This document shows, piece after piece, positions 12,613 through 37,239 of a stretch of DNA of 64,000 nucleotides. Position numbers and translations under genes: made by a program. The stretch is from Candidatus Atribacteria bacterium. Lineage in GTDB: Bacteria > Atribacterota > Phoenicimicrobiia > Phoenicimicrobiales > Stramentimicrobiaceae. The notes beneath the pieces are model-generated. The model was not told where the DNA came from, searched no databases, and was given only the letters and a program-made list of their open reading frames with translations. The first letter of the stretch is position 1. Every line of letters starts with the position of its first letter. Location of the stretch: the NCBI GenBank assembly GCA_029553585.1, contig JAKPKS010000082.1:1-64000 (forward strand), read 5' to 3'.

Positions 12613-12879
12613 ATGAAAAAATCAATCTTTATCATCTCTTTTGTATTTTTTGTGGCTTTTATGGTAATGGCTGCTATCGGTATGAGACCTTTTGGGGAAC
12701 CAACTGCCAGCGAGATGGATGACTATTTCATAGAAAATGCCCAGAGAGAAACAGCCGCCAACAATGTTGTCACTACAATAGTTTTCGATTACCGTGGTTT
12801 TGATACATTGGGAGAGGGAACTGTATTATTTACTGCAGTAGTGGGTGTTGTAGCCTTATTCAGGGAGGTGGCAAAATGA
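12613..12879 (+). CDS. mbhE: MbhE, MrpA-end-like subunit
   Basis: 88-residue membrane protein with one N-terminal helix, a periplasm-facing segment (FGEPTASEMDDYFI) and a C-terminal helix. NNVVTTIVFDYRGFDTLGE is the conserved stretch found at the end of fused MrpA/MrpB proteins and in stand-alone MbhE. Its position between mbhD and mbhF and four-base overlap with mbhF support the call. Confidence 0.85.
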   Translation: MKKSIFIISFVFFVAFMVMAAIGMRPFGEPTASEMDDYFIENAQRETAANNVVTTIVFDYRGFDTLGEGTVLFTAVVGVVALFREVAK

Positions 12880-13355: not shown

Positions 13356-13356
13356 T

Positions 13357-15269: not shown

Positions 15270-15270
15270 T

Positions 15271-15612: not shown

Positions 15613-15616
15613 CGTA

Positions 15617-16087: not shown

Positions 16088-16112
16088 AAAATGAGAAAGT
16101 TCAGGTGATAAT

Positions 16113-16628: not shown

Positions 16629-16639
16629 GGTGAATACAT

Positions 16640-18870: not shown

Positions 18871-19330
18871 ATCAAATTTAGGTAATATCATGCTTTGTAG
18901 CTTGAGATAATTTTGTTAAAAACTAAAGTAATAAAATAAAAGCTCTTTAGAATAAATGCATGCGATTGCCACGGCACCCAGTATTTTAGCTTAAGGACTG
19001 TTTCGTAATGATCAGGAAAAGAAAATATTTTCTTACAAGTTTGTATTTAACAATATGCAGGTATATGCTATGCAGGTATACCTCTTTTTAACGCACGACG
19101 CATTACGAAATAGGGGTTTTAAGGGGATACTTCCCCTGACTATAACTTAGCTTTAACCAGGGTTTCTCTTTTTTGAATTATATTATTATTAGCTTAATGC
19201 ATTATTTGTTAATTATTATTATGTTTATACGGTATACTATATACGTTATACGTTATACTATTTGCTTGAAGGTTTTGAAGGGGATACTTCCCCTGTCGAA
19301 ATGTAATTTTAATGAAAGAGGTGATTCAGA
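18871..19330. repeat. repeat-filled gap between mbhM and mbhN
   Basis: No convincing gene is present. The gap holds a diverged REP-like copy (18961-19020), a short ACGNNNN array (19091-19111), a palindromic tract rich in TATACGTTATAC (19226-19260) and two copies of a hairpin, AGGGGATACTTCCCCT, at 19122-19137 and 19279-19294. The hairpin resembles the one in the mbh leader at 11071-11088. It looks like repeat insertion inside an operon. Confidence 0.65.
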
Positions 19331-19738
19331 ATGCCGACACCAATGGTGTTTGAGTTAATCAAGCAGCTTTTACATAAACCTGCCACTAATTGTTTTCCGG
19401 TAAAGTACCATCCAGGAAAAACAACAGTTACCGAGTTGATAAAGAAAGTTCAGGATGGTGAAGCCCAGATTAATTCACCTGTAGAGATACCGGAAAAATT
19501 CAGAGGGAAGATATCCTATGATAGAGAAAATTGCATTGGATGCCGTTTATGTATTCGGGTCTGCCCCTCCCGGGCGATTGAATTCCTTCCCGAAGATAAA
19601 AAGATAAAAATTAGAATTGACCGCTGCATCTTTTGTTCACAATGTAATGATATTTGCCCGGTCAATGTACTCAAAATGTCTGAGGATTTCCTATTGGCTA
19701 ATGAAGATCGTTTTGCCCAGGAATTGATTGTCCAGTAA
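19331..19738 (+). CDS. mbhN: MbhN, NuoI-like 2x[4Fe-4S] ferredoxin subunit
   Basis: 135-residue iron-sulfur subunit with two cluster motifs, CIGCRLCIRVCP (from about residue 69) and CIFCSQCNDICP (from about 99). It relays electrons, presumably from ferredoxin, to MbhJ. ATG 19331 is preceded by AGAGGTGAT. It completes the A-to-N set despite the gap before it, and a clear terminator follows. Confidence 0.92.
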   Translation: MPTPMVFELIKQLLHKPATNCFPVKYHPGKTTVTELIKKVQDGEAQINSPVEIPEKFRGKISYDRENCIGCRLCIRVCPSRAIEFLPEDKKIKIRIDRCIFCSQCNDICPVNVLKMSEDFLLANEDRFAQELIVQ

Positions 19739-19907: not shown

Positions 19908-20354
19908 TCAGATCAGGAGGGGAATAGTGTTTAGTTTATCTTCTTGTAGCAGGTTGATAAACAGATGACATGCCTTTAAGATCGGCTCACTTAATCCCTC
20001 CCCTATTTTAGTAGAAAGTGGTTGTATGCCAATTAGTATGATTTTCTGGCAATAGGGAGTTAGATATCCTATCAAATAGGATATAGACAGGTAATGAGTG
20101 GAAAGCTGTAGAGATACAATCTTTTCGGGTGGGATAACCCTGATACTGCCTGCTTCAAGTTCCATTTCCACAGTATCAACAATAACCAGGAGCTCGGGAT
20201 GAATTTTTTTTATAACTGAAGTAAAATTTTCAGGGGCAGATTTGCCGTCTATTACAGTCCAGTTGTTTGCCTTGAAATGCTGAGCAATGTAAGAGCCTGC
20301 TCCATCATCGGATCGTAAAGGATTACCTATTCCCATAAGCAAATTTTTTACCAT
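19908..20354 (-). CDS. hydrogenase maturation protease (M52 family)
   Basis: Peptidase of the HycI/HyaD family, which trims the C-terminus of [NiFe]-hydrogenase large subunits after metal insertion. About 148 residues begin MVKNLLMGIGNPLRSDDG, the family signature with a metal-binding acid; further acids are in VIVDTVEMELEAGS and a conserved STHYLS histidine follows. The start at 20354 is preferred over 20402 because family members begin a few residues before GIGNP. It converges on the mbh operon, so MbhL is the likely substrate. Confidence 0.85.
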   Translation of the reverse strand: MVKNLLMGIGNPLRSDDGAGSYIAQHFKANNWTVIDGKSAPENFTSVIKKIHPELLVIVDTVEMELEAGSIRVIPPEKIVSLQLSTHYLSISYLIGYLTPYCQKIILIGIQPLSTKIGEGLSEPILKACHLFINLLQEDKLNTIPLLI

Positions 20355-20476
20355 GGTACATACTCTCTTTAATATATTATAAAAAGTTGCAGTAAAGTTC
20401 AAAGGATTGTAATATTATAATATAATACAAAGTTATAGCAATCAATTAATTATCCTTTAAAAGGAGGGTAAAGCTC

Positions 20477-21109: not shown

Positions 21110-21170
21110 GAAGAGTATTATACTAATACCTTCTCCAAGATGTTATATTTTTTAGAAAGGGTTATGACTT

Positions 21171-21809
21171 ATCAAGATTAGAAAAAAGCGTATTCCACAG
21201 GCGACTATTGATCGACTGCCAATTTACCACAGAACCTTAGAATCTTTGCTTGAAACAAGGGATAGAAATAAACTATCTACCATATCATCTTCTAAGCTGT
21301 CAGAGATAACCGGTATCAATTCCTATCAGATTAGAAAAGATTTTTCATATTTTGGTGAATTCGGGAAAAGAGGCATCGGTTATCCAGTTTCCGAATTAGC
21401 TAAAAAATTAAAAAAAATAATGAAATCAAATAAAAAATGGGATATTGCTCTGGCAGGTGCCGGTAATATAGGAACTGCTTTTCTTCGCTACAAAGGTTTT
21501 TCCAAAAGAGGCTTTACTATTAGATTAGTTTTTGATAATGATATTTTAAAAATTGGTACTGAAATAGATAATATTAAAATACTGCCCATTCAAGAAATGG
21601 AAGAACACTTAAAAAAACAGAAAATAAAAATTGGTATTATCGCAGTTCCTGCTCAATCGGCTCAGGAAGTGGCTGATAAGATGATTGCCGGTGGAGTGCG
21701 GTCTATATTAAATTTTGCTCCGGTCAGTATCAGGCATTCACAGGGGGTATCAATTAAACACATTGATATTGCGATTGAGCTGGAAAAGTTGGTTTATTAT
21801 TTGTTTTAG
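21171..21809 (+). CDS. rex: redox-sensing transcriptional repressor Rex
   Basis: Rex represses fermentation and hydrogenase genes and lets go when NADH/NAD+ rises. Visible are the winged helix (SKLSEITGINSYQIRKDFSYFGEFGKRG), the Rossmann motif ALAGAGNIG and the C-terminal dimer helix. The first standard start in frame is TTG 21246, but coding similarity continues upstream through RIPQATIDRLPIYHRTLE, the conserved Rex opening, to a stop at 21165. The best placed initiator is ATC 21171, nine bases after AAAGGG (21156-21161), giving 212 residues, the usual size. A one-base insertion after ATG 21164 would be the alternative. An 18-bp Rex operator lies 114 bp downstream of the gene. Confidence 0.9.
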   Translation: MKIRKKRIPQATIDRLPIYHRTLESLLETRDRNKLSTISSSKLSEITGINSYQIRKDFSYFGEFGKRGIGYPVSELAKKLKKIMKSNKKWDIALAGAGNIGTAFLRYKGFSKRGFTIRLVFDNDILKIGTEIDNIKILPIQEMEEHLKKQKIKIGIIAVPAQSAQEVADKMIAGGVRSILNFAPVSIRHSQGVSIKHIDIAIELEKLVYYLF

Positions 21810-21880: not shown

Positions 21881-21909
21881 TTGACATATCTAATGAGCAA
21901 TGTTAAAAT
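21881..21909 (+). promoter_or_regulatory. promoter of the formate dehydrogenase operon
   Basis: Consensus -35 TTGACA (21881-21886), 17-bp spacer and -10 TAAAAT (21904-21909) with an extended TG. Transcription should begin near 21916, seven bases before the Rex operator. Confidence 0.8.
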
Positions 21910-21922
21910 ATTTTGGTATGTT

Positions 21923-21940
21923 TTGTGATATTTTTCACAA
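21923..21940. promoter_or_regulatory. Rex operator
   Basis: TTGTGATATTTTTCACAA is an inverted repeat TTGTGA-N6-TCACAA, the classic Rex binding site. It lies just after the predicted start site, so bound Rex would block initiation or early elongation. It is close to the rex gene itself. Confidence 0.85.
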
Positions 21941-22028
21941 ATTTATTTTGAGGGAAAAGATTTCATTTACTAGTATTTAGTACCATATTTTTTTACTGTT
22001 AAAACTTTATTTTAAAAGAGAGTTTATT

Positions 22029-22376
22029 ATGAAAATCAAAGATATTGTCAATATATTGGATGCTGAAGTATTGAGCGGGGAAGATTTGCTGGATCGGGAA
22101 ATTGAAGAGTTTGCCGCCAGTGATCTGTTAAGTGATGTCCTTGCTTTATCCAAAGATAATTTCTTGCTACTAACCGGATTGACCACACAACAGGTAGTCA
22201 GAACTGCTGAGATTGCCGGAGGAGTGGGGGTAATTTTTGTGAGAGGTAAGGCTCCTGAGCAGGAAGCAATCGGATTGGCTCATTCGCATCATATTCCACT
22301 TTTAATGACCTCGAAAACAATGTTTGATGCCTGTAAAGCAATTGTTGAAGAAATTATTAAACAGAAGGAAAAATGA
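22029..22376 (+). CDS. DRTGG-domain protein
   Basis: First gene of the Rex-controlled operon. The 115-residue soluble protein resembles the DRTGG domain, with ASDLLSDVLA at about residue 36 and LLLTGLTTQQVVRTAEIAG in the middle. DRTGG domains occur with CBS domains and in HprK-like and phosphotransacetylase-like proteins, and are thought to sense a ligand; the ligand is unknown. In Thermotoga and clostridia similar proteins precede HydABC-type genes. It overlaps the next gene by four bases. Confidence 0.75.
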   Translation: MKIKDIVNILDAEVLSGEDLLDREIEEFAASDLLSDVLALSKDNFLLLTGLTTQQVVRTAEIAGGVGVIFVRGKAPEQEAIGLAHSHHIPLLMTSKTMFDACKAIVEEIIKQKEK

Positions 22377-23302
22377 CTGTTTTACATTCCAGAGAAAAAT
22401 TAACCTTAGCCAATGAGTTAATTTATGAATTAAAAGTAAAAGATGCCATGACCAGAGAGGTAATTTTTTTCGATAAAAATGCTACCTTTCGTGAAGTTCA
22501 AATGGCTTTAAAAGAAAATAGAATTTCGGGTGTACCAATTTTAGATGAACAGAAAAATATTATTGGTATTGTTAGTATTGATAATGTAATTACTGCTCTG
22601 GATAAAGGCTATGTGAATGAAAAAGTAGAAAACTACATGGCTAAAGAGGTTATAACTATCCCTCAAAATTATTCTCTGGTTTCAGCTATTAAAAAATTTG
22701 AAAAATATCAGTTTGGACGATTACCGGTAACTGATAAAGCCCATTCCTGCAAAATGGTAGGTATTCTGACTATGGGTGATATCTTAAATCGATTGCTGGT
22801 TAGTATACAGACCATTGCCGAGAAAGTTGAAAAAGATGAAGATAAAAATTCCCAGTTGTCAGATGAATTAGTCAGAAAAGTACAACAAAGACCATTACGT
22901 TTTGAAGTAAAAAAAGCTGATTTTGATAATGCGGGCAGGGTAGCCAGTATTATCAGAAATTATTTACAAAAATTAAATATTGATAAAAAATTACTGAGAA
23001 GAGTAGCAATTGTATGCTATGAAGCAGAGATGAATATCAGCATACATTCTTTAGGGGGGTATATATCGATAGAGGTTGAGCAAAACGGTATTACCATAAC
23101 TGCTGTTGATTATGGGCCAGGGATCCCGGATATTGAAGAGGCAATGAAACCCGGGTTCACAACTGCTTCTGAACAGATAAGGGCTTTAGGGTTTGGTGCC
23201 GGTATGGGCTTACCCAATATAAAAAAATGTGCTGATCGCTTAGAATTGGAGTCTTCTATGGAAACAGGTACCATTTTAAAAGCAGTAGTCTATTTAAGTT
23301 AG
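22373..23302 (+). CDS. CBS-pair protein with anti-sigma-type ATPase domain
   Basis: 309 residues with two parts. Residues ~24-145 form two CBS motifs (DAMTREVIFFDKNATFREV and NYMAKEVITIPQNYSLVSA), which usually bind adenine nucleotides. Residues ~180-305 form a GHKL/SpoIIAB-like ATPase with an N-box (EAEMNISIHS), G1 (DYGPGIPD) and G2 (GFGAGMGLPNI). It could be a Ser/Thr kinase or anti-sigma-like switch reading the energy charge. No histidine phospho-acceptor domain is seen. The target is unknown; the neighbours suggest the formate dehydrogenase complex or its transcription. Confidence 0.8.
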   Translation: MTVLHSREKLTLANELIYELKVKDAMTREVIFFDKNATFREVQMALKENRISGVPILDEQKNIIGIVSIDNVITALDKGYVNEKVENYMAKEVITIPQNYSLVSAIKKFEKYQFGRLPVTDKAHSCKMVGILTMGDILNRLLVSIQTIAEKVEKDEDKNSQLSDELVRKVQQRPLRFEVKKADFDNAGRVASIIRNYLQKLNIDKKLLRRVAIVCYEAEMNISIHSLGGYISIEVEQNGITITAVDYGPGIPDIEEAMKPGFTTASEQIRALGFGAGMGLPNIKKCADRLELESSMETGTILKAVVYLS

Positions 23303-23311
23303 GAGGTTAAA

Positions 23312-23656
23312 ATGAAGTTAAGTCAGATTATAGAAGAATGTAAACTGAAGAAAATAGTTTTCTGTTCTGATGATGAAATTAAGAATGGTTATTGTGGTGA
23401 TTTAATGTCTGATGTTATCGCGCACGCTAAGACCGATAGCGTCTGGGTTACGGTCCAGGCTCATAAAAATAGCATTGCGGTAGCCTTAATTAAAGAGATA
23501 CGGGCAATTATTTTCACTAATAATGTTGCCATAAGCCAGGAATTAATTGATAAAGCTAAAGAAGAAGATATTAATCTGTTCAGCACTGAAAATAATTCTT
23601 TCCAATTATGCGGATTATTATATAAATTATTGGAGGGCAGTAACCATCAGGATTGA
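23312..23656 (+). CDS. small DRTGG-like protein
   Basis: A 114-residue soluble protein resembling the first gene of the operon in length and in the motif GDLMSDVIAHAK, but lacking its TG-rich stretch. It probably shares the DRTGG-like fold. An AGGAGG site precedes the ATG. The 3' end contains the ribosome-binding site of the next gene. Function unknown. Confidence 0.65.
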   Translation: MKLSQIIEECKLKKIVFCSDDEIKNGYCGDLMSDVIAHAKTDSVWVTVQAHKNSIAVALIKEIRAIIFTNNVAISQELIDKAKEEDINLFSTENNSFQLCGLLYKLLEGSNHQD

Positions 23657-24389
23657 TTTGCATATCCATTCTGCTCTTTCGGCTTGCGGCGAAGACATTA
23701 TGTCCCCGCAAAGAATATTAAAAAGGGCAGAACAAAGTGGATTGAACTTAATTGCTATTACTGACCATAATGCAATTGCCCATTCCATTTTGATTAATGA
23801 ACTAAAAAAAGCTAACTCAGTGAATGTTATTTTAGGAGTAGAGTTGACAACCAGGGAAGAAGTGCATTTATTGGGTTATTTCCCGGATGAATTGAGCCTG
23901 AAAGAGATGGGGGAAAAAATAGATGAATATCTGCCGAAATTAGAAAATAGACCATCTTTCTTTGGTTACCAGTTAATCTATAATGAGCAGGAAGAAGTAA
24001 ACGAGATTGATTACCGGCTAAGGCAGAATGCATTACAGGCAAGTATGGAGGAATTGGTTAATTTCATACACTATCTGGGTGGTATAGCAGTGCCGGCCCA
24101 TATTCACAGAGATTATTGCAGTATAAAAAGCCAGATAGGGTTTTTAGATCCAAATAGTGATTTTGATGCAGTAGAAATATCACGATTTGAGTGGATAAAA
24201 AAGCAATATAAAATAGGTGATTTACTGGAAGGATTTCCGGTAGTAAGTGGCTCAGATAGCCATTTTTTGGAAGATATTGGCACTTTTTACTGGGAAGTGG
24301 ATGATGAGAGAAAAATAATGGATTTTGATTCATTGAAAAATTTTTTAAAGGAAATCAGGATTGAAAGACATAGCAGACCATCTTTTTGA
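23646..24389 (+). CDS. PHP-domain phosphoesterase
   Basis: Metal-dependent phosphoesterase-like protein of the PHP superfamily: RIDLHIHSALSACGED at the N-terminus (the HxH metal ligands), ITDHNAI, later VPAHIHRD and SGSDSH. About 247 residues. No standard start fits: ATC 23646 is eight bases after GGAGGG (23632-23637) and yields the expected M-RIDLHIHS opening. TTG 23658 lies just after the upstream stop and would remove the first strand. PHP genes of this kind recur in HydABC-type operons; the substrate is unknown. Confidence 0.8.
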   Translation: MRIDLHIHSALSACGEDIMSPQRILKRAEQSGLNLIAITDHNAIAHSILINELKKANSVNVILGVELTTREEVHLLGYFPDELSLKEMGEKIDEYLPKLENRPSFFGYQLIYNEQEEVNEIDYRLRQNALQASMEELVNFIHYLGGIAVPAHIHRDYCSIKSQIGFLDPNSDFDAVEISRFEWIKKQYKIGDLLEGFPVVSGSDSHFLEDIGTFYWEVDDERKIMDFDSLKNFLKEIRIERHSRPSF

Positions 24390-24897
24390 TATCTTTGAAA
24401 ATTCAGTCAATGCTGGGGCAAGTGAAGTTATAGTAAGAATTGCTAATACTGAAAATCATTTTTTTTGCAGCATCACCGACAATGGAACAGGAATTAGCGG
24501 ACCTGAAGTACTGGATCCCTTTGTAACTTCCCGGAAAACCAGAAGGGTGGGATTGGGACTTCCTTTATTAAAAAAGGCAGCAGAGGATACCGGGGGATAC
24601 CTAAAGATAAAAAAAAGAGAAGAGATGAGGGGTACTACATTACAATTCGAAATGGACACCTCTCATATTGATGCTAAACCCTTTGGTGATTTAGCACAGA
24701 CATTTGCAGATATCTTTTTTGCCTGGCCGGAAATGGTTTTTAAATTATATATATCAACAAGAGGCAGCGAAGAGCTGGTTTTAGATTTTCAAAGATTACG
24801 GCAGGAAGCAGAAGAGGGGTTAGTCGATCTGCTAAAACTGAGAAAGCATATTTATGAGGTTGCCAGGGAAGAACTAAAAAAAATAGATATCGGATAA
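24361..24897 (+). CDS. GHKL ATPase-domain protein
   Basis: 178-residue protein with a Bergerat ATP-binding fold: N-box LFDIFENSVNAGAS, G1 DNGTGISG and G2 RKTRRVGLGLPLLKKAAED. It lacks any sensor or histidine-acceptor domain. It starts with TTG 24361 inside the end of the PHP gene, with AAGGA upstream. As the second such ATPase in the cassette it may work with the CBS-ATPase protein. Function unproven. Confidence 0.75.
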   Translation: MKDIADHLFDIFENSVNAGASEVIVRIANTENHFFCSITDNGTGISGPEVLDPFVTSRKTRRVGLGLPLLKKAAEDTGGYLKIKKREEMRGTTLQFEMDTSHIDAKPFGDLAQTFADIFFAWPEMVFKLYISTRGSEELVLDFQRLRQEAEEGLVDLLKLRKHIYEVAREELKKIDIG

Positions 24898-24954
24898 CAT
24901 TTTTAAGGGTATAAAAAATATTTTAATATAATTTACTGTTCAAGAGGAGGAACT

Positions 24955-25323
24955 ATGAAAAATCTGGAAGAGCTAAGGATGATGAGAGAGAAGGTAAAGA
25001 GGGACTTAGCACTTAGAACAGGACAGCATCGTATTAAGATTGTTGTAGGAATGGGTAGTTGTGGAATAGCAGCTGGTGCCAGGGATACTATGAATGAATT
25101 GCTGGATTTGATTGAAAAAAACCATAGGACTGATATTATGGTCACTGCCTCAGGCTGTTTTGGTTTTTGTGCCCAGGAACCTATGATACATGTGTATGTA
25201 GATGACCAGAGGCCGGTAACCTATCGTAATGTTGATATTGATGCAGCAAGATTAATTTTTAATGAGCATATTTTAAACAATAGAGTAGTAGAACAATATC
25301 TTTTTTCAAAGGGGAAGAAATAA
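24955..25323 (+). CDS. [2Fe-2S] thioredoxin-like ferredoxin
   Basis: 122-residue protein of the NuoE/NuoF-N-terminal type. Conserved cysteines lie in GMGSCGIAAGA and TASGCFGFCAQEP, enough for part or all of a [2Fe-2S] site. It resembles the N-terminal ~95 residues of the NuoF-type protein downstream. Such a small protein regularly accompanies HydABC-type complexes. It overlaps the next gene by one base. Confidence 0.8.
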   Translation: MKNLEELRMMREKVKRDLALRTGQHRIKIVVGMGSCGIAAGARDTMNELLDLIEKNHRTDIMVTASGCFGFCAQEPMIHVYVDDQRPVTYRNVDIDAARLIFNEHILNNRVVEQYLFSKGKK

Positions 25324-25820
25324 TGAGTGAAACAACTGTCTTAAAAAATGATGAAATAGCTTTAGAAGAAAAATACCAGGAATTGAGAGATTATATCCAT
25401 GAAAATAAGGAGAAAAAGGGTTACTTAATTCCTGTTCTCTATAAAGCACAATCTCTATTTGGTTACCTGCCCGCAGAGGTTCAAAACTTTGTAGCTGAAG
25501 AAATGAATGTTTCTCCCAGTGAAGTTTTTGGAGTAATCACTTTTTATTCCTATTTTAAAACACAGCCAGTGGGGCGCCATACCATTACCATCTGTATGGG
25601 AACCGCCTGCTATGTCAGAGGTGCCAAAAAGATTTTAGAGGCATTGGAAGATAAATTGGGCATAAAGATAGGAGAAACAACAGAAGATTTGAGGTTTACT
25701 TTGGGAGAACAACGTTGTTTTGGGTCATGCGGTATGGCTCCGGTTATTATGATTGACCAGGATGTACATGGTCGTTTGACTGCCAGTAAATTAGATGCAA
25801 TATTAGAAAAATATAAATAG
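25323..25820 (+). CDS. NuoE-like subunit (HydC/gamma type)
   Basis: 165-residue 24-kDa-type subunit with a helical N-terminus (GYLIPVLYKAQSLFGYLP, FGVITFYSYF) and a thioredoxin-fold [2Fe-2S] domain with CMGTACYVRG and CFGSCGMAP supplying four cysteines. It pairs with the FMN subunit NuoF/HydB to pass electrons from NAD(P)H. It would serve the formate dehydrogenase encoded downstream. Confidence 0.9.
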   Translation: MSETTVLKNDEIALEEKYQELRDYIHENKEKKGYLIPVLYKAQSLFGYLPAEVQNFVAEEMNVSPSEVFGVITFYSYFKTQPVGRHTITICMGTACYVRGAKKILEALEDKLGIKIGETTEDLRFTLGEQRCFGSCGMAPVIMIDQDVHGRLTASKLDAILEKYK

Positions 25821-25841
25821 TTTCAGAAGGAGTAGTTAATT

Positions 25842-28800
25842 ATGAATAATATAAGAATCCAGCTTCTTCTATGCCATGGTACTTCCTGTATGTCTAATGG
25901 TGCCGTCAGAGTAAGGGAAGCGTTGGAAGAGGCATTAAAAGAGGCTAATCTGGAAAAAGAAGTTGAAATTATTACTACCGGTTGTATGGGGATATGTGAA
26001 TTGGGTCCCATTATGGTAGTTTATCCTGATGGAGTTTTTTACCAGCAATTAAAACCGGAAGATGCTCGGGAAATTGTGCAGGAGCATGTTTTAAAAGGTA
26101 GAGTAGTAGAACGCCTTTTCTATAAAAAGCCTAAAACAGAAGAATTAGTAGCAATGATGGAAGACATCGACTTCTTCAAATTACAGAAAAGAATTGCCCG
26201 CAGAAACTGTGGAATCATAGATGTTGATACCATTGATGATTATATTGGTGCCGATGGCTTTATGGCTTTAGGCAAGGTCTTAACTGAGATGACTCCTCAA
26301 CAGGTAATTGATGAAATTAAAAAATCAGGATTAAGAGGCAGGGGTGGTGCAGGTTTTCCCACTGGATTGAAATGGGAATTTGCTGCTAAAGCTCCTGGTA
26401 CACAAAAATACATTTTATGTAATGCCGATGAGGGCGACCCTGGTGCCTTTATGGATCGCAGTATGCTGGAAGGCGACTCCTATAGTGTTTTGGAGGCTAT
26501 GATGATTGGTGGTTATGCTATAGGAGCCAATCAGGGATATATTTATGTACGAGCTGAGTACCCCTTAGCTATCGAAAGGTTGAATATTGCCATCAGAGAG
26601 ATGAAGAAACATAATCTATTGGGGGAAAATATCTTTGGAACCGGCTTTAATTTTGATGTAGAAATCAGAATGGGGGCAGGTGCCTTTGTCTGTGGTGAGG
26701 AGACTGCCTTGATGCACTCCATTGAAGGGAAAAGAGGAGAGCCCAGACCAAGACCACCCTTCCCTGCTAATCAGGGGTTATTCCAGGTACCTACTGTGCT
26801 AAACAATGTGGAAACATTAGCCAATATTCCCTATATAATTCTTTATGGAGCTGAAAATTTTGCCTCAGTTGGAACCGAAAAGAGCAAAGGAACCAAGGTA
26901 TTTGCCTTAGCTGGCAATATCAATAATACCGGTTTAATCGAAGTCCCTATAGGTATAACCTTAGGTGAAATTGTCTATAATATCGGGGGAGGAATTCCAG
27001 GAAATAAGAAATTTAAGGCGGTTCAGATTGGTGGACCATCCGGAGGCTGTATACCAGCACAGCATCTCAATGCTGTAGTTGATTATGAGTCACTAAAGGC
27101 ACTTGGTGCTATTATGGGTTCAGGCGGGTTGATCGTAATGGATGAAGATACCTGTATGGTTGATATTGCCCGTTATTTCATGGAGTTTATTCAGGATGAA
27201 TCCTGTGGCAAATGTACCCCTTGCCGAGAAGGGACCAGGGTAATGCTTGAGATATTGACCAGGATTTGTGAGGGCAAGGGCAAAATGGAAGATCTGGATA
27301 CCTTAGAAGAGTTATCTCATAGAATTGGAGATACAGCCCTTTGCGGGTTAGGACAAACAGCTCCTAATCCGGTTTTATCTACCTTAAAATACTTTAGACA
27401 TGAGTATATTGAACATATCAGAGACAAGAAATGCAGAGCAGGAGTTTGTGCCGAATTAGTATATGCTCCCTGTACCAATTCCTGCCCGGCTTCAGTAAAT
27501 GCCCCGGCTTATATAGCATACACTAAAGAAGGGCAATATGAGAGAGCAATGCAGGCTCATTTAAGAACAAATCCTTTCCCGGCGGTATGTGGTAGAGTTT
27601 GCCCTGCTTTCTGTGAATCCCGCTGCCGGAGAAAAGATATTGATAGCGCCATTAACATCCGGGCTGTCAAGAGATTTATGGCTGATCAGAATATTAATTA
27701 TTTAGATTGCTATCCTGATAAACATGTTAAAAATGGTAAAAGAGTTGCCATCATAGGTGGAGGTCCATCCGGACTATCCAATGCCTATTTTCTAACTATG
27801 TTAGGGTATGAAACAACAGTATTTGAAGCACAACCCAAGGCAGGGGGAATGCTGACTTATGCCATTCCTTCCTATCGTTTACCTAAAAATATTGTGGAGA
27901 AAGAGATTCAAGCCCTGGTAGATTATGGAGTTAAGATACAAACCAATGCCAGAATTGGAAAGGATATAACCTTAGATCAGCTCAGAGACGAAGGTTATCA
28001 GGCTTTCTATATCTCTGCTGGAGCATGGGATTCTATTATGCCGGAGATGGATAATCTGGATGACCCCAGAATTTACAGTGGATTAGAATTCCTGTCTAAA
28101 TTTAACAGAGAAGAACCACTGGATATTGGTAAGGAGGTAATAGTGGTAGGTGGCGGTAATTCCGCTATAGATGCAGCCAGAACTGCCAAAAGGCTTGGCG
28201 CCAATGTTACTATTGTCTACCGTAGAACCAGAGAAGAAATGCCCGCTGATGAAGCTGAAATTAATGAAGCGGAGAGAGAAGGTATTAAAATATCTCTCCT
28301 GCAAAATATAAAATCAGTAAAACCTCATAAAGATTTCCTGGAAGTTGAATTAATCAATATGAGATTGGGAGATTATGATACCTCAGGACGACGCAGACCT
28401 GTGGAAATCAAAGACTCCAATTTCACTAAAAATATTGATTGCCTAATCCTGTCAATCGGTCAAAAACCAGCTATTACAGATTTATTAGGTAATGAGGAGA
28501 TTCAGCTTAATCGTGACCAGACCATTCCAACCGAAAAGGGAAAAACTAGAATAAAAGACGTTTTTGCCGGTGGTGATGTGGCATTAGGCCCTGCTACCGT
28601 AGTTGAAGCAATAGGGGAGGCGCAGGATGCAGCGGAGGCTATTGATTTTTATCTAACTGGTAAGAAAAGAGCTTATCCCTGGAGAATAAAGGATCCTATC
28701 TATGTTGATTTTGATCCAGAAGCAGACCCGGTAGACTATCAACGTTCACATGAATTCCTGCTCCCGGTTCAGGAAAGAGGAATTTACAATGAAGTGGAAA

Positions 28801-28871
28801 AGACCTGGGATAAAGAGACCACCTGTCGTGAAGGCAGCAGGTGCCTGCGCTGTGAATACCGAGAGGACTAA
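25842..28871 (+). CDS. NuoF-GltD fusion, NAD(P)H-flavin-iron-sulfur subunit
   Basis: 1009 residues, two enzymes in one chain. Residues 1-95: [2Fe-2S] thioredoxin-like domain (Cys10, 16, 48, 52). About 130-520: NuoF/HydB core with FMN/NADH loop GLRGRGGAGFPTG (164-176), GGPSGGC, and CGKCTPC (455-461) for a [4Fe-4S] cluster. About 530-620: cysteine-rich GltD-type iron-sulfur region. About 633-940: GltD/NfnB-like flavoprotein with IIGGGPSG (637-644) and VVGGGNSAIDAARTAKRLGA for a second nucleotide. A final CLRC tail follows. Similar fusions are known in Stn-type transhydrogenases of acetogens. The second module suggests NADPH as an additional partner (inference). Confidence 0.9.
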   Translation: MNNIRIQLLLCHGTSCMSNGAVRVREALEEALKEANLEKEVEIITTGCMGICELGPIMVVYPDGVFYQQLKPEDAREIVQEHVLKGRVVERLFYKKPKTEELVAMMEDIDFFKLQKRIARRNCGIIDVDTIDDYIGADGFMALGKVLTEMTPQQVIDEIKKSGLRGRGGAGFPTGLKWEFAAKAPGTQKYILCNADEGDPGAFMDRSMLEGDSYSVLEAMMIGGYAIGANQGYIYVRAEYPLAIERLNIAIREMKKHNLLGENIFGTGFNFDVEIRMGAGAFVCGEETALMHSIEGKRGEPRPRPPFPANQGLFQVPTVLNNVETLANIPYIILYGAENFASVGTEKSKGTKVFALAGNINNTGLIEVPIGITLGEIVYNIGGGIPGNKKFKAVQIGGPSGGCIPAQHLNAVVDYESLKALGAIMGSGGLIVMDEDTCMVDIARYFMEFIQDESCGKCTPCREGTRVMLEILTRICEGKGKMEDLDTLEELSHRIGDTALCGLGQTAPNPVLSTLKYFRHEYIEHIRDKKCRAGVCAELVYAPCTNSCPASVNAPAYIAYTKEGQYERAMQAHLRTNPFPAVCGRVCPAFCESRCRRKDIDSAINIRAVKRFMADQNINYLDCYPDKHVKNGKRVAIIGGGPSGLSNAYFLTMLGYETTVFEAQPKAGGMLTYAIPSYRLPKNIVEKEIQALVDYGVKIQTNARIGKDITLDQLRDEGYQAFYISAGAWDSIMPEMDNLDDPRIYSGLEFLSKFNREEPLDIGKEVIVVGGGNSAIDAARTAKRLGANVTIVYRRTREEMPADEAEINEAEREGIKISLLQNIKSVKPHKDFLEVELINMRLGDYDTSGRRRPVEIKDSNFTKNIDCLILSIGQKPAITDLLGNEEIQLNRDQTIPTEKGKTRIKDVFAGGDVALGPATVVEAIGEAQDAAEAIDFYLTGKKRAYPWRIKDPIYVDFDPEADPVDYQRSHEFLLPVQERGIYNEVEKTWDKETTCREGSRCLRCEYRED

Positions 28872-28899
28872 TATCGAGAGAAAGGATTGAAAAGATAAA

Positions 28900-31671
28900 A
28901 TGAAAGATACAGCTATTAAAGAAGAAATAAAAACCATACCCCTGGTACAGGTTACTATAGATGGCCAAAAAATAATGGTAGAGCCCGGTACAACCATCCT
29001 TGATGCAGCAGAGAAAGCCGGTATAAAAATTCCTACTCTTTGTGCTATGGCAGAAATCAATCATTATCCGGGAGCTTGTCGCATGTGTGTGGTAGAGGTG
29101 GAAGGGATGCCAACCTTAGTTGCCTCCTGTGTTTACCCGGTTAGAGAAGGAATGATAATACATACCCATAACGAAAGGGTAATCAAGGCCCGTAAAGTGG
29201 TACTGGATTTGCTTTTAACTACTCACCCCTTAGATTGCATGACCTGTGAGAAAAACGGAGAATGTGATTTGCAAAACTTAGCCTATGAGTTGGGAATTAA
29301 AGAAACCAGTTACGGGAGGGTGGAGAGAAGCCTTCCGCTTGATGAAAGTAACCCCTTTATCTTGAGGGATTTGAATAAATGTATTCTCTGCCGGAGATGT
29401 GTGGAGATATGTAATGAAATTCAACAATCTCGGGCAATTGGTTTTGGATTCAGAGGAAAAAAGACGGAGGTAATTGCCGGGTTAGGCCATAAATTGGGAC
29501 ATGAAACAAAAATAGCAGCCAGTTCGGCAGAAAACCCTGATTATTCCAATTGTGTTTCTTGTGGTCAGTGTGTGGCAGTATGCCCGGTAGGGGCCTTAAC
29601 TGACAAGGCGGCACAAGGCAAGGGAAGAGTCTGGGAATTTGAAAAAGTACATACTACCTGTAATTATTGCGGTGTCGGCTGTGGGTTTGATTTAAATATT
29701 AAAGACGGTAAGGTAGTTAAGGTTACTTCTAATCCCAATAGTATAGTCAATGGTATAAACCTCTGTGTAAAAGGGCGTTTTGGTAATGATTATATACACA
29801 GAGAAGACCGCCTGACTACACCTTTAATCAGAAAGAACGGGAAATTAGAACCTGCTTCCTGGGAGGAGGCGCTTCAGTTAATCAGTGAAAAATTTAGTGA
29901 GATTAAAAAAGAAAGTGGTGGTGATAGCTTAGCTGTTCTATCTTCAGCCAAATGTACCAATGAGGAGAACTTTCTGCTCATGAAATTTGGCCGGGCGGTT
30001 TTAGGTACCAGTAATGTAGACCACTGTGCCCGCCTCTGCCATTCTGCCACTGTTGCTGGTTTAGCACAATCTTTCGGCAGTGGAGCCATGACCAATTCTA
30101 TTAGCGAGTTAGCCAATGCCTCAGTTATCTACTTAACCGGTTCCAATACCACTGAAAACCATCCGATTATTGGCTTAGAGATAAAGAAAGCGGTAACTAA
30201 AAATGGAGCAAAATTGATTGTAGCTGACCCCAGAGAGATAGAATTGGTAAAATATGCTACCCTCTGGTTAAGGCATAGGCCCGGTACGGATGTTGCCCTG
30301 TTTAATGGCCTGATGAATGTTATCATTACTGAGGGTTTGGAAGATAAGAAATTTATCGAAGAAAGAACTGAAGATTATGAAAAAATGAAGGAAGTTGTGC
30401 TGAAGTACACACCTGAGATTGTAGAGAAGATTACCGGAGTTCCTGCCGAAGATATCAGAAAAGCAGCCAGAATATATGCCGCCGGTCCCAATACCGCTCT
30501 AATTTACTCTATGGGAATTACTCAGCATACCAGCGGGGTGGACAATGTCCTGTCTACTGCTAACATAGCTATGTTAACCGGAAATGTAGGGAAGGAAAGC
30601 TCAGGGGTTAACCCCTTGAGGGGTCAGAGCAATGTACAGGGAGCCTGTGACATGGGTGCCTTGCCAAACGTATTCTCTGGCTATCAAGCCGTTACAGATC
30701 CGGTTGCACAGGAAAAATTTTCTAAAGCCTGGGGAGTTGAGCTTCCCAATAAGGTGGGACTAACCGTAGTGGAAATACTCAATGCAGCCTATGATGGTAA
30801 AATCAGAGGGCTATTTATTATGGCTGAAAACCCGGCTATGTCAGACCCCGATTTAAATCATGCCCGCGAAGCCTTAAAGAGAGTAGAATTCCTGGTAGTT
30901 TCCGATATATTTATGACTGAGACGGCTGAGGTTGCTGATGTGGTACTACCGGGAGTAAGTTTTGCAGAGAAGGACGGAACAATTACCAATACCGAAAGAA
31001 GGGTACAGAGATTCCATAAGGCAATCGAGCCTGTTGGGGATTCAAAGCCAGATTGGCAGATAATCTGTGAAATAGCCCAGAGCATGGGATATAATATGAG
31101 CTATGAAAGCCCGGCTGAAATTATGGAAGAGATTGCCCGGCTGACTCCCAGCTATGGCGGGATGCTCTACTATAGGCTGGAAAAAGGTGGCTTGCAATGG
31201 CCCTGTCCAGATGTAAACCACCCTGGTACCAAATTCCTGCATAAGGATAAATTTACCAGAGGGAAAGGAAAATTCTTCGGAATCGAATTCAGAGAAGCTG
31301 CAGAACTTCCCGATGAAGAATATCCCTTCATCTTTACTACTGGAAGGGTATTGTACCATTTCCATACCGGTACAGTTACCCGTAAATCCAGAGGTTTAAA
31401 CGAAGTGTATAAAGAAGCATTGGTAGAGATTAATCCTGATGATGCCCGGGAATTAGGTATAGAAAATGATGAAATAATTGAAATTGCTTCCCGCAGAGGA
31501 ACAATTCAGGCAAAGACCAAAGTTACCGAAAAATCGGACCGGGGTGTGATTTTCATGAGCTTCCATTTCCATGAAGCTGCTGCCAACCTTTTGACCAACG
31601 CTGCCCTTGACCCGGTTTCCAAGATACCAGAATATAAAGTATGTGCTGTTAAAGTTAAGAAGATATCCTAA
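28900..31671 (+). CDS. fdhA: NuoG-type formate dehydrogenase catalytic subunit
   Basis: 923 residues. N-terminal [2Fe-2S] domain (Cys48, 60, 63, 77), then HPLDCMTCEKNGEC and two 4Fe-4S motifs (CILCRRCVEIC from 161; CVSCGQCVAVC from 218). The Mo/W-bis-PGD oxidoreductase begins with CNYCGVGC (254-261). The active-site segment HCARLCHSATVAG carries cysteine at position 380, where many formate dehydrogenases have selenocysteine, followed by the conserved histidine. There is no [FeFe]-hydrogenase H-cluster motif. The adjacent formate channel, fdhD and mobA support formate as substrate. It likely forms a complex with the NuoE and NuoF proteins. Confidence 0.9.
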   Translation: MKDTAIKEEIKTIPLVQVTIDGQKIMVEPGTTILDAAEKAGIKIPTLCAMAEINHYPGACRMCVVEVEGMPTLVASCVYPVREGMIIHTHNERVIKARKVVLDLLLTTHPLDCMTCEKNGECDLQNLAYELGIKETSYGRVERSLPLDESNPFILRDLNKCILCRRCVEICNEIQQSRAIGFGFRGKKTEVIAGLGHKLGHETKIAASSAENPDYSNCVSCGQCVAVCPVGALTDKAAQGKGRVWEFEKVHTTCNYCGVGCGFDLNIKDGKVVKVTSNPNSIVNGINLCVKGRFGNDYIHREDRLTTPLIRKNGKLEPASWEEALQLISEKFSEIKKESGGDSLAVLSSAKCTNEENFLLMKFGRAVLGTSNVDHCARLCHSATVAGLAQSFGSGAMTNSISELANASVIYLTGSNTTENHPIIGLEIKKAVTKNGAKLIVADPREIELVKYATLWLRHRPGTDVALFNGLMNVIITEGLEDKKFIEERTEDYEKMKEVVLKYTPEIVEKITGVPAEDIRKAARIYAAGPNTALIYSMGITQHTSGVDNVLSTANIAMLTGNVGKESSGVNPLRGQSNVQGACDMGALPNVFSGYQAVTDPVAQEKFSKAWGVELPNKVGLTVVEILNAAYDGKIRGLFIMAENPAMSDPDLNHAREALKRVEFLVVSDIFMTETAEVADVVLPGVSFAEKDGTITNTERRVQRFHKAIEPVGDSKPDWQIICEIAQSMGYNMSYESPAEIMEEIARLTPSYGGMLYYRLEKGGLQWPCPDVNHPGTKFLHKDKFTRGKGKFFGIEFREAAELPDEEYPFIFTTGRVLYHFHTGTVTRKSRGLNEVYKEALVEINPDDARELGIENDEIIEIASRRGTIQAKTKVTEKSDRGVIFMSFHFHEAAANLLTNAALDPVSKIPEYKVCAVKVKKIS

Positions 31672-31704
31672 AAATTAAAATTATTAAAAAGGGAGGATGC
31701 TAAA

Positions 31705-32580
31705 TTGAGTCCGGAAGAAAAAGAAAAAATTCAATTGGTACAGGATGTGGCAACACCCTGTAATGCGCCGGCAGCTATTGCCAATGCTTTTTGCTCTATC
31801 GGAAAGGCCAAAGCCGGTTTATCGTTAGTAAAAATGATTATTCTAGGAATTTTAGCTGGCGCTTATATCAGCTTTGGGGCACAGCTGGCTACTATGGTTA
31901 CCTATGATTCAGTTAAATTCGTGGGTGATGGAATTACCAAAATACTATTTGGTAGCGTTTTTTCGGTAGGTCTTATGATGGTAGTTATTGCTGGAGCAGA
32001 ATTATTTACTGGTAATAATTTAATAGTAGTAGGTACCTTAAATAAGGATGTGACGGTAGAAAGATTATTATACAGTTGGTTCTGGGTCTATGTGGCAAAC
32101 TTTATTGGCTCTCTCCTGGTAGTTTGGCTTATGTATAGTGCCCAGCTCTGGAAGACTGGCAATTTTGCGGTAGGGGCAAAGGCGTTAGCCATAGCTAACG
32201 GCAAAGTCGGTTTAACCTGGGGTGCGGCAATTGCCAGAGGAATTCTCTGTAACTGGCTGGTATGCTTAGCAGTGTGGATGGCTGTAGCAGCTAAAGATAT
32301 AATTGGAAAAATCTTTGCAATCTATTTCCCCATTATGGCTTTTGTGGCAAGTGGTTTCGAACACAGTATTGCCAATATGTATTTTGTACCAATGGGTATC
32401 TTGTTAAAAAATAATGCCTCAGTAGTTTCAGCAGCTGGTTTAGCCGATCAGCTGGGCAAGCTGAATTGGGGTAGTTTTATATTTAATAATCTACTCCCGG
32501 TCACTATTGGCAATATAATAGGTGGAGCCTTCTTTGTAGCTACGCTATACTGGTATGTTTATTTAAGAGAGAATAAGTAA
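31705..32580 (+). CDS. focA: formate/nitrite-family channel
   Basis: 291-residue FNT-family membrane protein with six hydrophobic segments. Family motifs are ILAGAYISFGAQLA in helix 1, AGAELFTGNN after helix 2, GILCNWLVCLAVWMA and GFEHSIANMYFVP. The TTG start follows GGGAGG. It is the last gene of the Rex-controlled operon, directly after the formate dehydrogenase, so formate import or export is far likelier than nitrite. A terminator follows. Confidence 0.9.
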   Translation: MSPEEKEKIQLVQDVATPCNAPAAIANAFCSIGKAKAGLSLVKMIILGILAGAYISFGAQLATMVTYDSVKFVGDGITKILFGSVFSVGLMMVVIAGAELFTGNNLIVVGTLNKDVTVERLLYSWFWVYVANFIGSLLVVWLMYSAQLWKTGNFAVGAKALAIANGKVGLTWGAAIARGILCNWLVCLAVWMAVAAKDIIGKIFAIYFPIMAFVASGFEHSIANMYFVPMGILLKNNASVVSAAGLADQLGKLNWGSFIFNNLLPVTIGNIIGGAFFVATLYWYVYLRENK

Positions 32581-32606
32581 TTTATTTAAGTAAAATAGAG
32601 AAAATC

Positions 32607-32649
32607 AGAGGGGTTATACTAGTGAGAATAGGTATAACCTCTCTTTTTA
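32607..32649 (+). terminator. rho-independent terminator after focA
   Basis: A 13-bp stem AGAGGGGTTATAC (32607-32619) with GTATAACCTCTCT (32632-32644) has one G-T pair, and a T tract follows. Confidence 0.85.
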
Positions 32650-32712
32650 CATATTGAGAAATTACCTGCTGATTTATATTTTTTTATTATTGGCTATACT
32701 GGTGACAATTAA

Positions 32713-33354
32713 ATGACTAATCGGGAAAAATATGCTTCCATCTCTGTAATCGTGCTGGCAGGCGGAAGAAGCAGCAGAATAGGTTTAAATCAGGATAAAG
32801 GTTTTCTGCCTTTTATGGGTAGTAGTCTTATGGAAAAGGTTATTTCAAATATCCTATCTGTTACAGGAATTACTGAAGAAGATATTATTATTGTAGGGCC
32901 TAAAGGCCGGTTTCCACAATACAAGGTCACGGTTGAGGATTTCTACCCGCAAAAAGGACCACTGGGAGGCATCTTCTCTGGTTTACAATATTCTAAAACC
33001 TTCTACAACCTGGTTATCGGATACGATATGCCCTTTGTGGAAGCCGGGTTAGTGGAATATATGATAAAAAATAGGGAAGGCTATGATATCATTATTCCGA
33101 CACATAGTAAGGGACTGCTGGAGCCATTATGTGCCATTTATAGTAAAAACTGTCTAAAGGTAATTAAAGAGAATTTGGGAAAAGGTATCCTGGCAGTCAG
33201 GGCTATCCTTCCTTTTTTAAAAACACTCAAAATAACCGAATCTGAAATCAGGAGATTTGACCCGGAATTATGTTCTTTTTTTAATATTAATTTTCAAAAT
33301 GATTTTTTAAAGGCAAAAAAAATGGCTAAGAACCGGAGAAGAAAAGAATGCTAA
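32713..33354 (+). CDS. mobA: molybdenum cofactor guanylyltransferase
   Basis: Attaches GMP to molybdopterin to make the guanine-dinucleotide cofactor used by formate dehydrogenases. The 213-residue protein opens with VIVLAGGRSSRIGLNQDKGFLPF (LAGG..SRxGxDK-type nucleotide loop) and has YDMPFVEAGLVEYM at the metal-binding position. It follows the focA terminator and overlaps fdhD by seven bases, matching a role in maturing the FdhA upstream. Confidence 0.88.
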   Translation: MTNREKYASISVIVLAGGRSSRIGLNQDKGFLPFMGSSLMEKVISNILSVTGITEEDIIIVGPKGRFPQYKVTVEDFYPQKGPLGGIFSGLQYSKTFYNLVIGYDMPFVEAGLVEYMIKNREGYDIIIPTHSKGLLEPLCAIYSKNCLKVIKENLGKGILAVRAILPFLKTLKITESEIRRFDPELCSFFNINFQNDFLKAKKMAKNRRRKEC

Positions 33355-34109
33355 AAGATAAAAAAGGGGTTGAGCAGGAATTAATTCAGATTAACCATGG
33401 TGAGCAAAAAAAAGTTATAGACTTAGTAGCAAAAGAGATAGCTGTAGGTATCTTTGTCAATCAGAAAAAGATTGTTAACTTAAATTCCAGCCCAGGTAAT
33501 TTAAAATATTTAGCGACAGGGTTTTTATATAGTATAGGATTACTGAAAGATAAAAGGGATATTATTTCCCTTAAAACTATCGGAAAGGCGGTTTATTTGC
33601 AGATTAATAATCCCGAATCTGCCGCCGGTATCTTAGACCTCACCGGCCAGTTCAGGCCAATAACACCAGTGTATAGAAAATGTAATACCAAAAATAAAAC
33701 TCTAAAACTTGATACAAGCACCATATACTCGCTCCTGGTTCTTATGCAGGAAAAGGCAGAGTTTTTTAAGATAAGCGGCGGAGTACATAGTTGTGGCTTG
33801 GCAAACCATGCCGGTCGCCTACTGCTGTTTTGTGAAGATATCAGCCGATATAATACAATAGACAGGATCTTAGGTGAGGCTATCTTAAAGGATATCGATA
33901 CTAAAAATAAGGTAATGTTGACCTCCTGCCGTATTACTGCCGGTATTATGCATAAAATTATCAAAGGAAATGTTCCTATAGTGATTTCCAGGTCCGCCGT
34001 TACCGATTGTGCAATCCAGCTGGCTGAAAGGTATGGGGTTACCCTTATTGGATTTGCCCGGGGAGAGAGAATGAATATTTATACCCATCCCGAACGAATC
34101 ACCGGGTAG
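33348..34109 (+). CDS. fdhD: formate dehydrogenase accessory sulfurtransferase
   Basis: FdhD transfers sulfur from a cysteine desulfurase to the molybdenum cofactor, which activates formate dehydrogenase. 253 residues show the family core SGGVHSCGLA, CEDISRYNTIDRILG, TSCRITAGIM and the C-terminal GFARGERMNIYTHPERI. The conserved catalytic loop appears here with a single cysteine (HSC), whereas E. coli has a CxxC. Overlap with mobA indicates co-expression. Confidence 0.92.
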   Translation: MLKDKKGVEQELIQINHGEQKKVIDLVAKEIAVGIFVNQKKIVNLNSSPGNLKYLATGFLYSIGLLKDKRDIISLKTIGKAVYLQINNPESAAGILDLTGQFRPITPVYRKCNTKNKTLKLDTSTIYSLLVLMQEKAEFFKISGGVHSCGLANHAGRLLLFCEDISRYNTIDRILGEAILKDIDTKNKVMLTSCRITAGIMHKIIKGNVPIVISRSAVTDCAIQLAERYGVTLIGFARGERMNIYTHPERITG

Positions 34110-34172
34110 CTCAGTTCTGATACCTGTTTTTTGATGCAAGAACAATTTACTCAAGAAGCGAAGGTTTTATAA

Positions 34173-34601
34173 ATGGACGATTTAGTATTGGCTATTGATC
34201 CAGGCAGAAAAAAATGTGGAATTGCGCTGGTTGATTCCCGGTTAATATATTTAGAAGGCAAAGTTATAGATAATGAAGAGCTGGTGGATGGTATTAAAGG
34301 TTATCTCATTAAATATCAGGTTAAAAAGATGGTGATAGGTGGTGGTACAAATTCAGAGAATATCAGGGCTATTATCAAAGAAAATTTTCTGGAGATACCT
34401 ATTACAGTAATTGCTGAAGAAGATACCACAATGGAAGCCAGACGATATTTTTTTAATTACAATCCGCCGACGGGCTGGTTAAGGTTTTTGCCCGGTTCTC
34501 TGCGTATTCCGCCTCGACCCTATGATGACTTTGCAGCCTATGTCATTGCCCGTAGATTTTTTACAGATAAAGGTTCTGGCCGAAAAAATGATTGCCAATA
34601 A
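34173..34601 (+). CDS. YqgF/RuvX-like RNase H-fold protein
   Basis: A 142-residue protein beginning VLAIDPGRKKCGIALVD, the first strand and metal-binding Asp of the RuvC/YqgF fold. Further acidic positions lie in IAEEDTTMEARRYFF and RPYDDFAAYVIARRFF. Canonical YqgF (RuvX) processes 16S rRNA or acts in transcription antitermination, but this version is diverged and carries a GWLRFLPGSLRIPPRP insert. It lies between fdhD and hypF. Function uncertain. Confidence 0.7.
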   Translation: MDDLVLAIDPGRKKCGIALVDSRLIYLEGKVIDNEELVDGIKGYLIKYQVKKMVIGGGTNSENIRAIIKENFLEIPITVIAEEDTTMEARRYFFNYNPPTGWLRFLPGSLRIPPRPYDDFAAYVIARRFFTDKGSGRKNDCQ

Positions 34602-34672
34602 TTTTATTTTTAACCAGAACTAAAAAATATTAATTAAAAACCGATTATACTCGAATTTATTGCGGAGAAATA

Positions 34673-36973: not shown

Positions 36974-37023
36974 TTTTGTAGTATATTTGTACAATTATAA
37001 AAATTATAATAGGGGTATTCGAA

Positions 37024-37239
37024 ATGTGTCTGGCTATTCCTGGTAAGATAATAAAAAAAATCAACCCTGCAGAAGCAGAGGTTTTAATAGGAAAGATAAA
37101 GAAAATAATCAGTATTGACCTTTTACCCGAAATAAAAGAGGGGGATTATGTCCTGGTGCATGCCGGATTTGCCATTACTAAGGTTAATTTTCGGGAGGCA
37201 AAGGAAATAATCGAAGCCTGGGAGGAAGTTCAGCCTTGA
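37024..37239 (+). CDS. hypC: hydrogenase assembly chaperone HypC
   Basis: 71-residue HypC/HybG-family chaperone that carries the Fe(CN)2CO unit with HypD and delivers it to the hydrogenase large subunit. The essential Cys2 is present in MCLAIPGK, and GDYVLVHAGFAI is the second family motif. It overlaps hypD by four bases. Confidence 0.95.
   Translation: MCLAIPGKIIKKINPAEAEVLIGKIKKIISIDLLPEIKEGDYVLVHAGFAITKVNFREAKEIIEAWEEVQP

Follow-up and report, generated by a model that had tools for sequence, protein, structure and literature searches.

A Rex-linked formate dehydrogenase operon of an Atribacterota genome with a GltD module in the ferredoxin-domain position of its HydB-type subunit

The operon and its control signals

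Checks of the genes, gaps, promoter and terminator established that the operon is real and intact. It lies in the window (the whole 64-kb stretch of DNA analyzed here) of an Atribacterota MAG (2.06 Mb in 304 contigs, 89% complete, 6.7% contamination), whose phylum was judged by the close relatives L006, L007 and L017, and all features are on the forward strand unless stated otherwise. Its first five genes form a sensory cassette that encodes a DRTGG-domain protein (22029–22376; PF07085), a protein with a CBS pair and a HATPase domain that is anti-sigma-factor-like kinase in type (22373–23302; PF00571, PF13581), a second DRTGG-domain protein (23312–23656; PF07085), a PHP-domain protein (approximately 23547–24389; PF02811, PF13263) and a second HATPase protein (24361–24897; PF02518). 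The same cassette (22029–24897) was also observed 5' of NuoF-GltD-HydA operons in Bacillota. The genes that follow encode an HndB-like small thioredoxin-fold [2Fe-2S] protein (24955–25323; NF041612), a NuoE/HydC/BfuC-type subunit with the [2Fe-2S] cluster C1 (25323–25820; PF01257, 179 bits), a NuoF-GltD fusion of 1009 residues assigned by its profile domains (25842–28871), a NuoG-N::formate dehydrogenase (FDH) of 923 residues of the Mo/W-bisPGD type (28900–31671; TIGR01591, PF00384) and a FocA-type formate channel (31705–32580; TIGR00790, 254 bits). The spacing of adjacent genes ran from overlaps up to +57 bp. The domain profiles and these small gaps bore out the gene set and order, from sensory cassette to FocA, claimed in an earlier note on this DNA. 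A search of genomes for this gene order, which that note had proposed, found it to recur (e.g., in L006, L054 and L055). As these and other genomes have the same fusion and gene order, an artifact of the MAG was ruled out as the source of the fusion.

The single promoter and single terminator that had been claimed were both confirmed. The promoter (21881–21909) is of the sigma-70 type, TTGACA-17-TAAAAT with a TG-extended -10 box, matches the consensus at 11/12 positions and was the top score of the region scanned. The intrinsic terminator (32607–32650), a hairpin with a T run, has a folding energy of -20.1 kcal/mol (z -4.9), and none of 200 shuffles was as stable. The neighboring gene 5' of the operon is rex (21168–21809; NF003995, 233 bits), for the redox-sensing (NADH/NAD+) repressor. 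The TTG at 21246 that is listed as its start probably truncates the gene, judging from the sequence: the open frame reaches back to 21168, albeit with no ATG, GTG or TTG there. Just 3' of the -10 box is a Rex operator, TTGTGATATTTTTCACAA (21923–21940), an exact TTGTGA-N6-TCACAA palindrome that was equaled in 0/1000 shuffles and is the sole match at one mismatch or fewer within the 64-kb window. An equally perfect box precedes this operon in L072, a member of the same genus, and in each of the eight relatives checked. The operon is thus Rex-linked, as the earlier note had it, by an adjacent rex gene and a perfect operator at the promoter, the two marks of a Rex regulon; binding by Rex is predicted from these.

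Genes for a MobA-like molybdenum cofactor nucleotidyltransferase and an FdhD sulfurtransferase, named by sequence similarity and associated with FDH maturation, follow the operon (32713–34109). Their position 3' of the operon is retained in relatives, and they are probably a unit separate from it. The longer stretch 32713–38315 groups maturation genes for FDH and for [NiFe]-hydrogenase (MobA, FdhD, a YqgF-like gene, HypF and HypD). Directly 5', at 11224–19738, is a cluster for Mrp antiporter-like proteins and an Mbh-type [NiFe] group-4 hydrogenase, with a maturation protease gene nearby on the opposite strand (19908–20402).

The formate dehydrogenase and the NuoF-GltD fusion

The FDH subunit scored 902 bits against TIGR01591 (cut-off 666), has Cys380-His381 at its active site and retains all five N-terminal Fe-S cluster motifs, in agreement with its earlier identification as a NuoG-type Cys-FDH. 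Several variants were seen elsewhere. Two Bacillota loci (L152 and L158), whose gene sets are duplicated, have an in-frame TGA at the active-site codon (CARL-U-H), and by sequence they are probably selenocysteine versions of the same complex; in L158, FocA adjoins FDH. In three other Bacillota loci (L128, L129 and L131) an FDH of approximately 1075–1081 residues, with a NuoE domain fused to its C-terminus, stands beside NuoF-GltD; the sequence taken for the FDH of L131 in the active-site comparison was in a wrong frame and was left out. A second FDH, linked to HdrB/HdrC-like subunits, was present in the genomes with an orphan HydA described below (L184, L185 and contigs C16/C160 of G000). The window's genus also has FTHFS and a PFL-like gene, which do not fix the direction of formate flow.

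Residues 1–540 of the fusion (25842–27461) constitute a NuoF/HydB/BfuB core with the FMN/NAD(H) site and Fe-S ligands; where it aligns with solved HydB-type chains, the identity is 52–68%. The ligands comprise C11/C16/C48/C52 for a thioredoxin-like [2Fe-2S] cluster, C455/C458/C461/C501 for a [4Fe-4S] cluster and C438/C476/H525/C531/C536 for the bifurcation-type cluster B2. With regard to the domains that define BfuB, the FMN domain (IPR011538) was matched by PF01512 at 155.5 bits and the NADH_4Fe-4S domain (IPR019575) by PF10589 at 122.5 bits; for the SLBB domain (IPR019554), PF10531 scored 26.7 bits against a cut-off of 27, and the GGPSG motif is present. The BfuC and BfuA domains were also found (PF01257 in NuoE; a chain of Fer2_4, NADH-G_4Fe-4S_3 and Fer4). 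Together, the NuoE and NuoF domain matches confirmed that the operon encodes a HydBC-type core.

The core also has the features of bifurcating enzymes. We used the signature of bifurcating beta-subunits (A/E232, M234, F367 and GGPSG; Losey 2020, PMC7311640), which the window's fusion matches with A202, M204, F340 and GGPSG from residue 397. Across the fusions, the A and M positions were conserved in 87/87, GGPSG in 86/87 and F at the FMN position in 78/87, and the B2 ligands C438, H525, C531 and C536 were present in all 87. The B2 ligands, including the histidine, are absent from non-bifurcating homologues according to Schut et al. (PMC9304861). The pattern of non-bifurcating NAD-linked FDHs (R. 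capsulatus type, with T/S and K/S/A for A and M and no GGPSG) was absent from the fusion. The signature is suggestive of bifurcation and no proof of it; together with the retained B2 ligands, it keeps bifurcation, raised as a possibility in the earlier note, a plausible prediction.

Residues 541–1009 (27462–28871) form a GltD/NfnB-like module with FAD and NADP(H) Rossmann domains (YRR at 793–795). The extra NADP(H) module reported earlier was therefore upheld, with the small correction that it makes up the C-terminal half of this NuoF chain and takes the position of HydB's C-terminal 2[4Fe-4S] domain. By comparison with solved relatives, we infer that its proximal [4Fe-4S] cluster is held by C548/C587/C591/K610 and its distal cluster by C544/C595/C1001/C1004. 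C544, C548, C587, C591, C595 and K610 were invariant in the 86 other fusions, and C1001/C1004 were present in 84 of the 86. K610 aligns exactly to K170 of StnC, where NfnB has Glu; K170 is a lysine ligand of the FAD-proximal cluster and was shown to be important in Stn (PMC10482914). In Stn, bifurcation takes place in the HydBC part, and the FAD of GltD serves as a port for NADPH that does not bifurcate.

The domain that GltD replaces, the 2[4Fe-4S] ferredoxin-like C-terminal domain of HydB and StnB, is taken as the ferredoxin site. A profile search of the tail of the window's fusion gave no ferredoxin-type Fer4 match, and the CxxCxxCxxxC ferredoxin motif was found in 0/87 fusions. The remaining BfuB domain, IPR017896 (ferredoxin-type 4Fe-4S, clusters B3/B4), is thus missing from the fusion, with GltD in its place. 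In L072, a HydB core approximately 84% identical to that of the window continues after the same KKCRAGVC junction into an ordinary 2[4Fe-4S] tail, and L053, of the same family, has an ordinary 2[4Fe-4S] tail as well. These two unfused proteins nest within the fused clade on the core tree (a quick tree, in which the detail of branches is tentative) and therefore point to a recent exchange of tails.

The AlphaFold model of the fusion had a pLDDT of 89 and a pTM of 0.85, with 60 fusions aligned. In Foldseek searches the two halves matched HydB and the GltD of StnC/NfnABC separately (TMq 0.4–0.5), and none of the best 50 solved chains listed covered both halves. For the GltD half, NfnABC and StnC supplied the closest structural relatives with their GltD parts, and classical NfnB ranked behind them.

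Distribution and partners of the fusion

The distribution survey covered Atribacterota and Bacillota. A NuoF match was found in 47 of the 50 Atribacterota genomes and the full fusion in at least 28, the window's own genome included; several further fusions in this phylum were truncated by contig ends. The junction occurred in about 70 of 399 sampled genomes of Bacillota, the phylum of Ca. Dichloromethanomonas (count from the survey table). Among the 60 Bacillota fusion loci that were read, the next gene was HydA in 45, FDH in five and not assignable in ten. FDH partners occur at several separate places on the core tree, one of them (L129) deep among HydA-linked Bacillota, although this branching is tentative. 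The earlier note had regarded the combination with GltD as undescribed. This was not the case: the fusion is a common partner of HydA in both Atribacterota and Bacillota, and one such hydrogenase, of Vallitalea, has been published (PMC6163223). The open-licence literature was found to describe neither NuoF-GltD with an FDH nor a widespread class whose ferredoxin domain has been replaced, an absence that is weak evidence.

Within Atribacterota, intermediate arrangements were identified. NuoF-GltD is combined with NuoE2, NuoF2 and FDH in L056, L058 and L059; HydA and FDH are both in one gene row with NuoF-GltD in L060; NuoF-GltD, HydA, an ECF-transporter-like gene and FDH are consecutive in L007; and the distant families (L062–L070) have HydA only. 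The NuoE2-NuoF2 pair lies between NuoF-GltD and HydA or FDH in most other Atribacterota (L056, L058–L070), and several of its copies have lost the thioredoxin-domain cysteines. The unfused NuoF2 of relatives has the non-bifurcating pattern (T/K) in 16/17 cases. One contig labelled Bacteroidales (L008) carries an Atribacterota-type operon at 83% identity and is probably mis-binned.

The earlier note had also described the FDH as standing in place of an [FeFe]-hydrogenase. This applies to the operon and does not extend to the genome, which has a HydA gene truncated at the end of another contig (C54) and lacking NuoE and NuoF genes of its own. In four relatives a full-length HydA gene is followed by the ECF-transporter-like gene, again with no NuoE or NuoF nearby, and these incomplete MAGs (G000, G048, G049, G042 and G046) show a single NuoF each beside the orphan HydA. 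An ECF-transporter-like gene after [FeFe] HydA, within or outside the operon, was observed in L178–L181 and L007 (PF12822 in the latter).

As the orphan HydA has no NuoE/NuoF partner and the operon's NuoF is the only one, the NuoE/NuoF core probably serves both the FDH, in cis, and HydA, in trans, judging from the gene content of incomplete MAGs. The operon would then encode only part of a formate/H2/NAD(P) complex with both FDH and the orphan HydA on one NuoE-NuoF-GltD core, a reading that is compatible with the others below and whose prospects we place slightly short of even. It is favored by L007, where the HydA-ECF pair that the window's genus has elsewhere, away from NuoE/NuoF, stands inside the operon between NuoF-GltD and FDH, and by L060 with HydA and FDH in one row. 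Weighing against it are the chance that HydA works alone with ferredoxin, the incompleteness of the MAGs and the lack of any Rex box close to the orphan hydA genes.

Proposed electron transfer and comparison with known systems

Our best reading, whose chances we consider evenly balanced, is that the operon encodes a Bfu-type (HydBC-core) FDH whose second carrier port is most likely for NADP(H), possibly with ferredoxin also reacting at the GltD clusters. The enzyme would be a cytoplasmic FDH on a HydBC (BfuBC) flavin core, a predicted complex of NuoE, NuoF-GltD and NuoG/FDH. Formate and CO2 would be interconverted at the Mo/W site of FDH, and electrons would pass through its Fe-S chain to the FMN of the NuoF half, the predicted site of reaction with NAD(H). 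The FMN/B2/C1 triad typical of bifurcating HydBC enzymes is intact, and the domain that would pass the second branch to ferredoxin has ceded its seat to a Stn-type GltD that carries a pair of [4Fe-4S] clusters, FAD and an NADP(H) site. NADP(H) is the most likely second carrier because the domain that hands electrons to ferredoxin is missing and GltD is in its place. The putative reaction is roughly 2 formate + NAD+ + NADP+ <=> 2 CO2 + NADH + NADPH. Expression would be set by the redox state through Rex and the sensory cassette, FocA would move formate, and the same core would probably serve the orphan HydA too.

Based on the effective potentials given by Schut et al. (NADH -280, NADPH -380, formate -420 and ferredoxin -500 mV; PMC9304861), formate oxidation to both nucleotides would be downhill. 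We estimate that the reverse direction, CO2 to formate, would require low formate concentrations of the kind found in syntrophy to be feasible. Ferredoxin could be handled separately by the Mbh-type hydrogenase encoded upstream in the window; such a role of Mbh was proposed for JS1 (PMC6776118).

More broadly, and tentatively, since we hold it to be somewhat improbable as a whole, the fusions may constitute a ferredoxin-independent HydBC (Bfu) branch, in which the swap of docking domains re-aimed the low-potential branch to NADP+, so that NAD(H) and NADP(H) are together coupled reversibly to H2 or formate. One argument against our best reading is that ferredoxin may dock on the distal cluster of GltD, by analogy with NfnB. 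The distal cluster of NfnB is taken as the ferredoxin exit, which counts for an unlikely but substantial rival, a Stn-like four-substrate enzyme in which GltD would be an extra mid-potential port on the formate chain and the core would bifurcate to NAD+ and ferredoxin, the latter docking at the distal [4Fe-4S] cluster of GltD or on another subunit. The bifurcation signature kept in full is consistent with this rival, as is the passage of electrons to the HydBC core by the same kind of GltD in Stn. However, the known ferredoxin-docking domain is absent from 87/87 fusions, and the GltD of Stn is on the NuoG subunit rather than in the ferredoxin seat.

In HydB of S. wolfei, loss of clusters B3/B4 goes with loss of bifurcation (PMC11406978), and for this reason the fusion core may not bifurcate at all. 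It could then be a formate:NAD(P)+ oxidoreductase with independent FMN-NAD(H) and GltD-NADP(H) sites, yielding NADH, NADPH and transhydrogenation with no coupling; since the potential of formate lies below those of both nucleotides, its oxidation would need none. We consider this quite improbable, as the core residues are of the bifurcating type and the T/K pattern of NuoF2 makes the contrast visible inside the same operons. The poorest prospect is the version of the earlier note, in which GltD would be an accessory to an ordinary bifurcating enzyme with formate, NAD(P)H and ferredoxin as its three partners. Known bifurcating FDHs do combine a HydBC core with FDH, but this version leaves the position of GltD unexplained, and ferredoxin is a doubtful third carrier, since the domain that GltD replaced is exactly the ferredoxin-docking one.

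In the Bfu survey, the BfuB ferredoxin domain served to define the family, and every member was assumed to use NAD(H) and ferredoxin (PMC9304861); its domain filter would probably have excluded the fusion. A large fusion branch, with the hallmarks of bifurcation kept and the ferredoxin domain replaced by an NADP(H) module, has apparently been overlooked by surveys. Near-identical cores with either tail in one genus offer a clean test of the role of the docking domain in HydBC bifurcation, and the same pairs can test whether the core splits electrons between NAD and NADP. The outcome would alter how models of Atribacterota, and of many fermenting Bacillota, link formate, H2 and NADPH.

Related enzymes have been reported previously: an electron-bifurcating FDH was inferred for Atribacterota JS1 (PMC6776118), FDH-type Bfu enzymes are scattered over the BfuB tree (PMC9304861), and Stn-like genes adjoin an FDH gene in Dehalobacteriia (PMC10327494). 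Two assignments were rejected. The "glutamate synthase-linked" group A2 of HydDB covers hydrogenases and its rule excludes NuoF, and the NADP-FDH of Moorella is not the same enzyme, its FdhB having no NuoF/FMN module as described (PMC5736913).

Among formate-linked systems, HylABC-FdhF2 of Clostridium acidurici is likewise a HydBC-type complex and bifurcates to NAD+ and ferredoxin, but it has separate HylA and FdhF2, a Sec enzyme, and a normal HylB tail in place of GltD. Hyt-FdhA of Clostridium autoethanogenum resembles the proposed system in that one NuoF-type core serves hydrogenase and FDH and is NADP-linked; it differs in its subunits (HytA-E), with NADP binding assigned to HytB and a GltD fusion not described. 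Fdh-Bfu (Type 1), for example of Carboxydothermus hydrogenoformans (PMC9304861), shares with the window's enzyme a BfuBC core whose B2 ligands are bifurcation-specific and a BfuA that carries the pterin/formate site beside an Fe-S chain; in the window, however, BfuB has GltD where the family requires the ferredoxin-type domain IPR017896. StnABC/NfnABC (Sporomusa ovata, Thermococcus sibiricus and Caldicellulosiruptor saccharolyticus) share the HydBC core and a GltD that has the lysine ligand and is followed by a CxxC, but their GltD is within the NuoG subunit, their Fdh-like domain is inactive and StnB has a ferredoxin domain. GltD on NuoF, the intact FDH active site and the missing ferredoxin domain ruled out that the window encodes Stn itself. 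The trimeric [FeFe]-hydrogenase of Vallitalea guaymasensis (PMC6163223) has the same substitution of the HydB 2[4Fe-4S] tail by GltD, with the difference that the partner of its NuoF-GltD is HydA and that of the fusion in the window is FDH.
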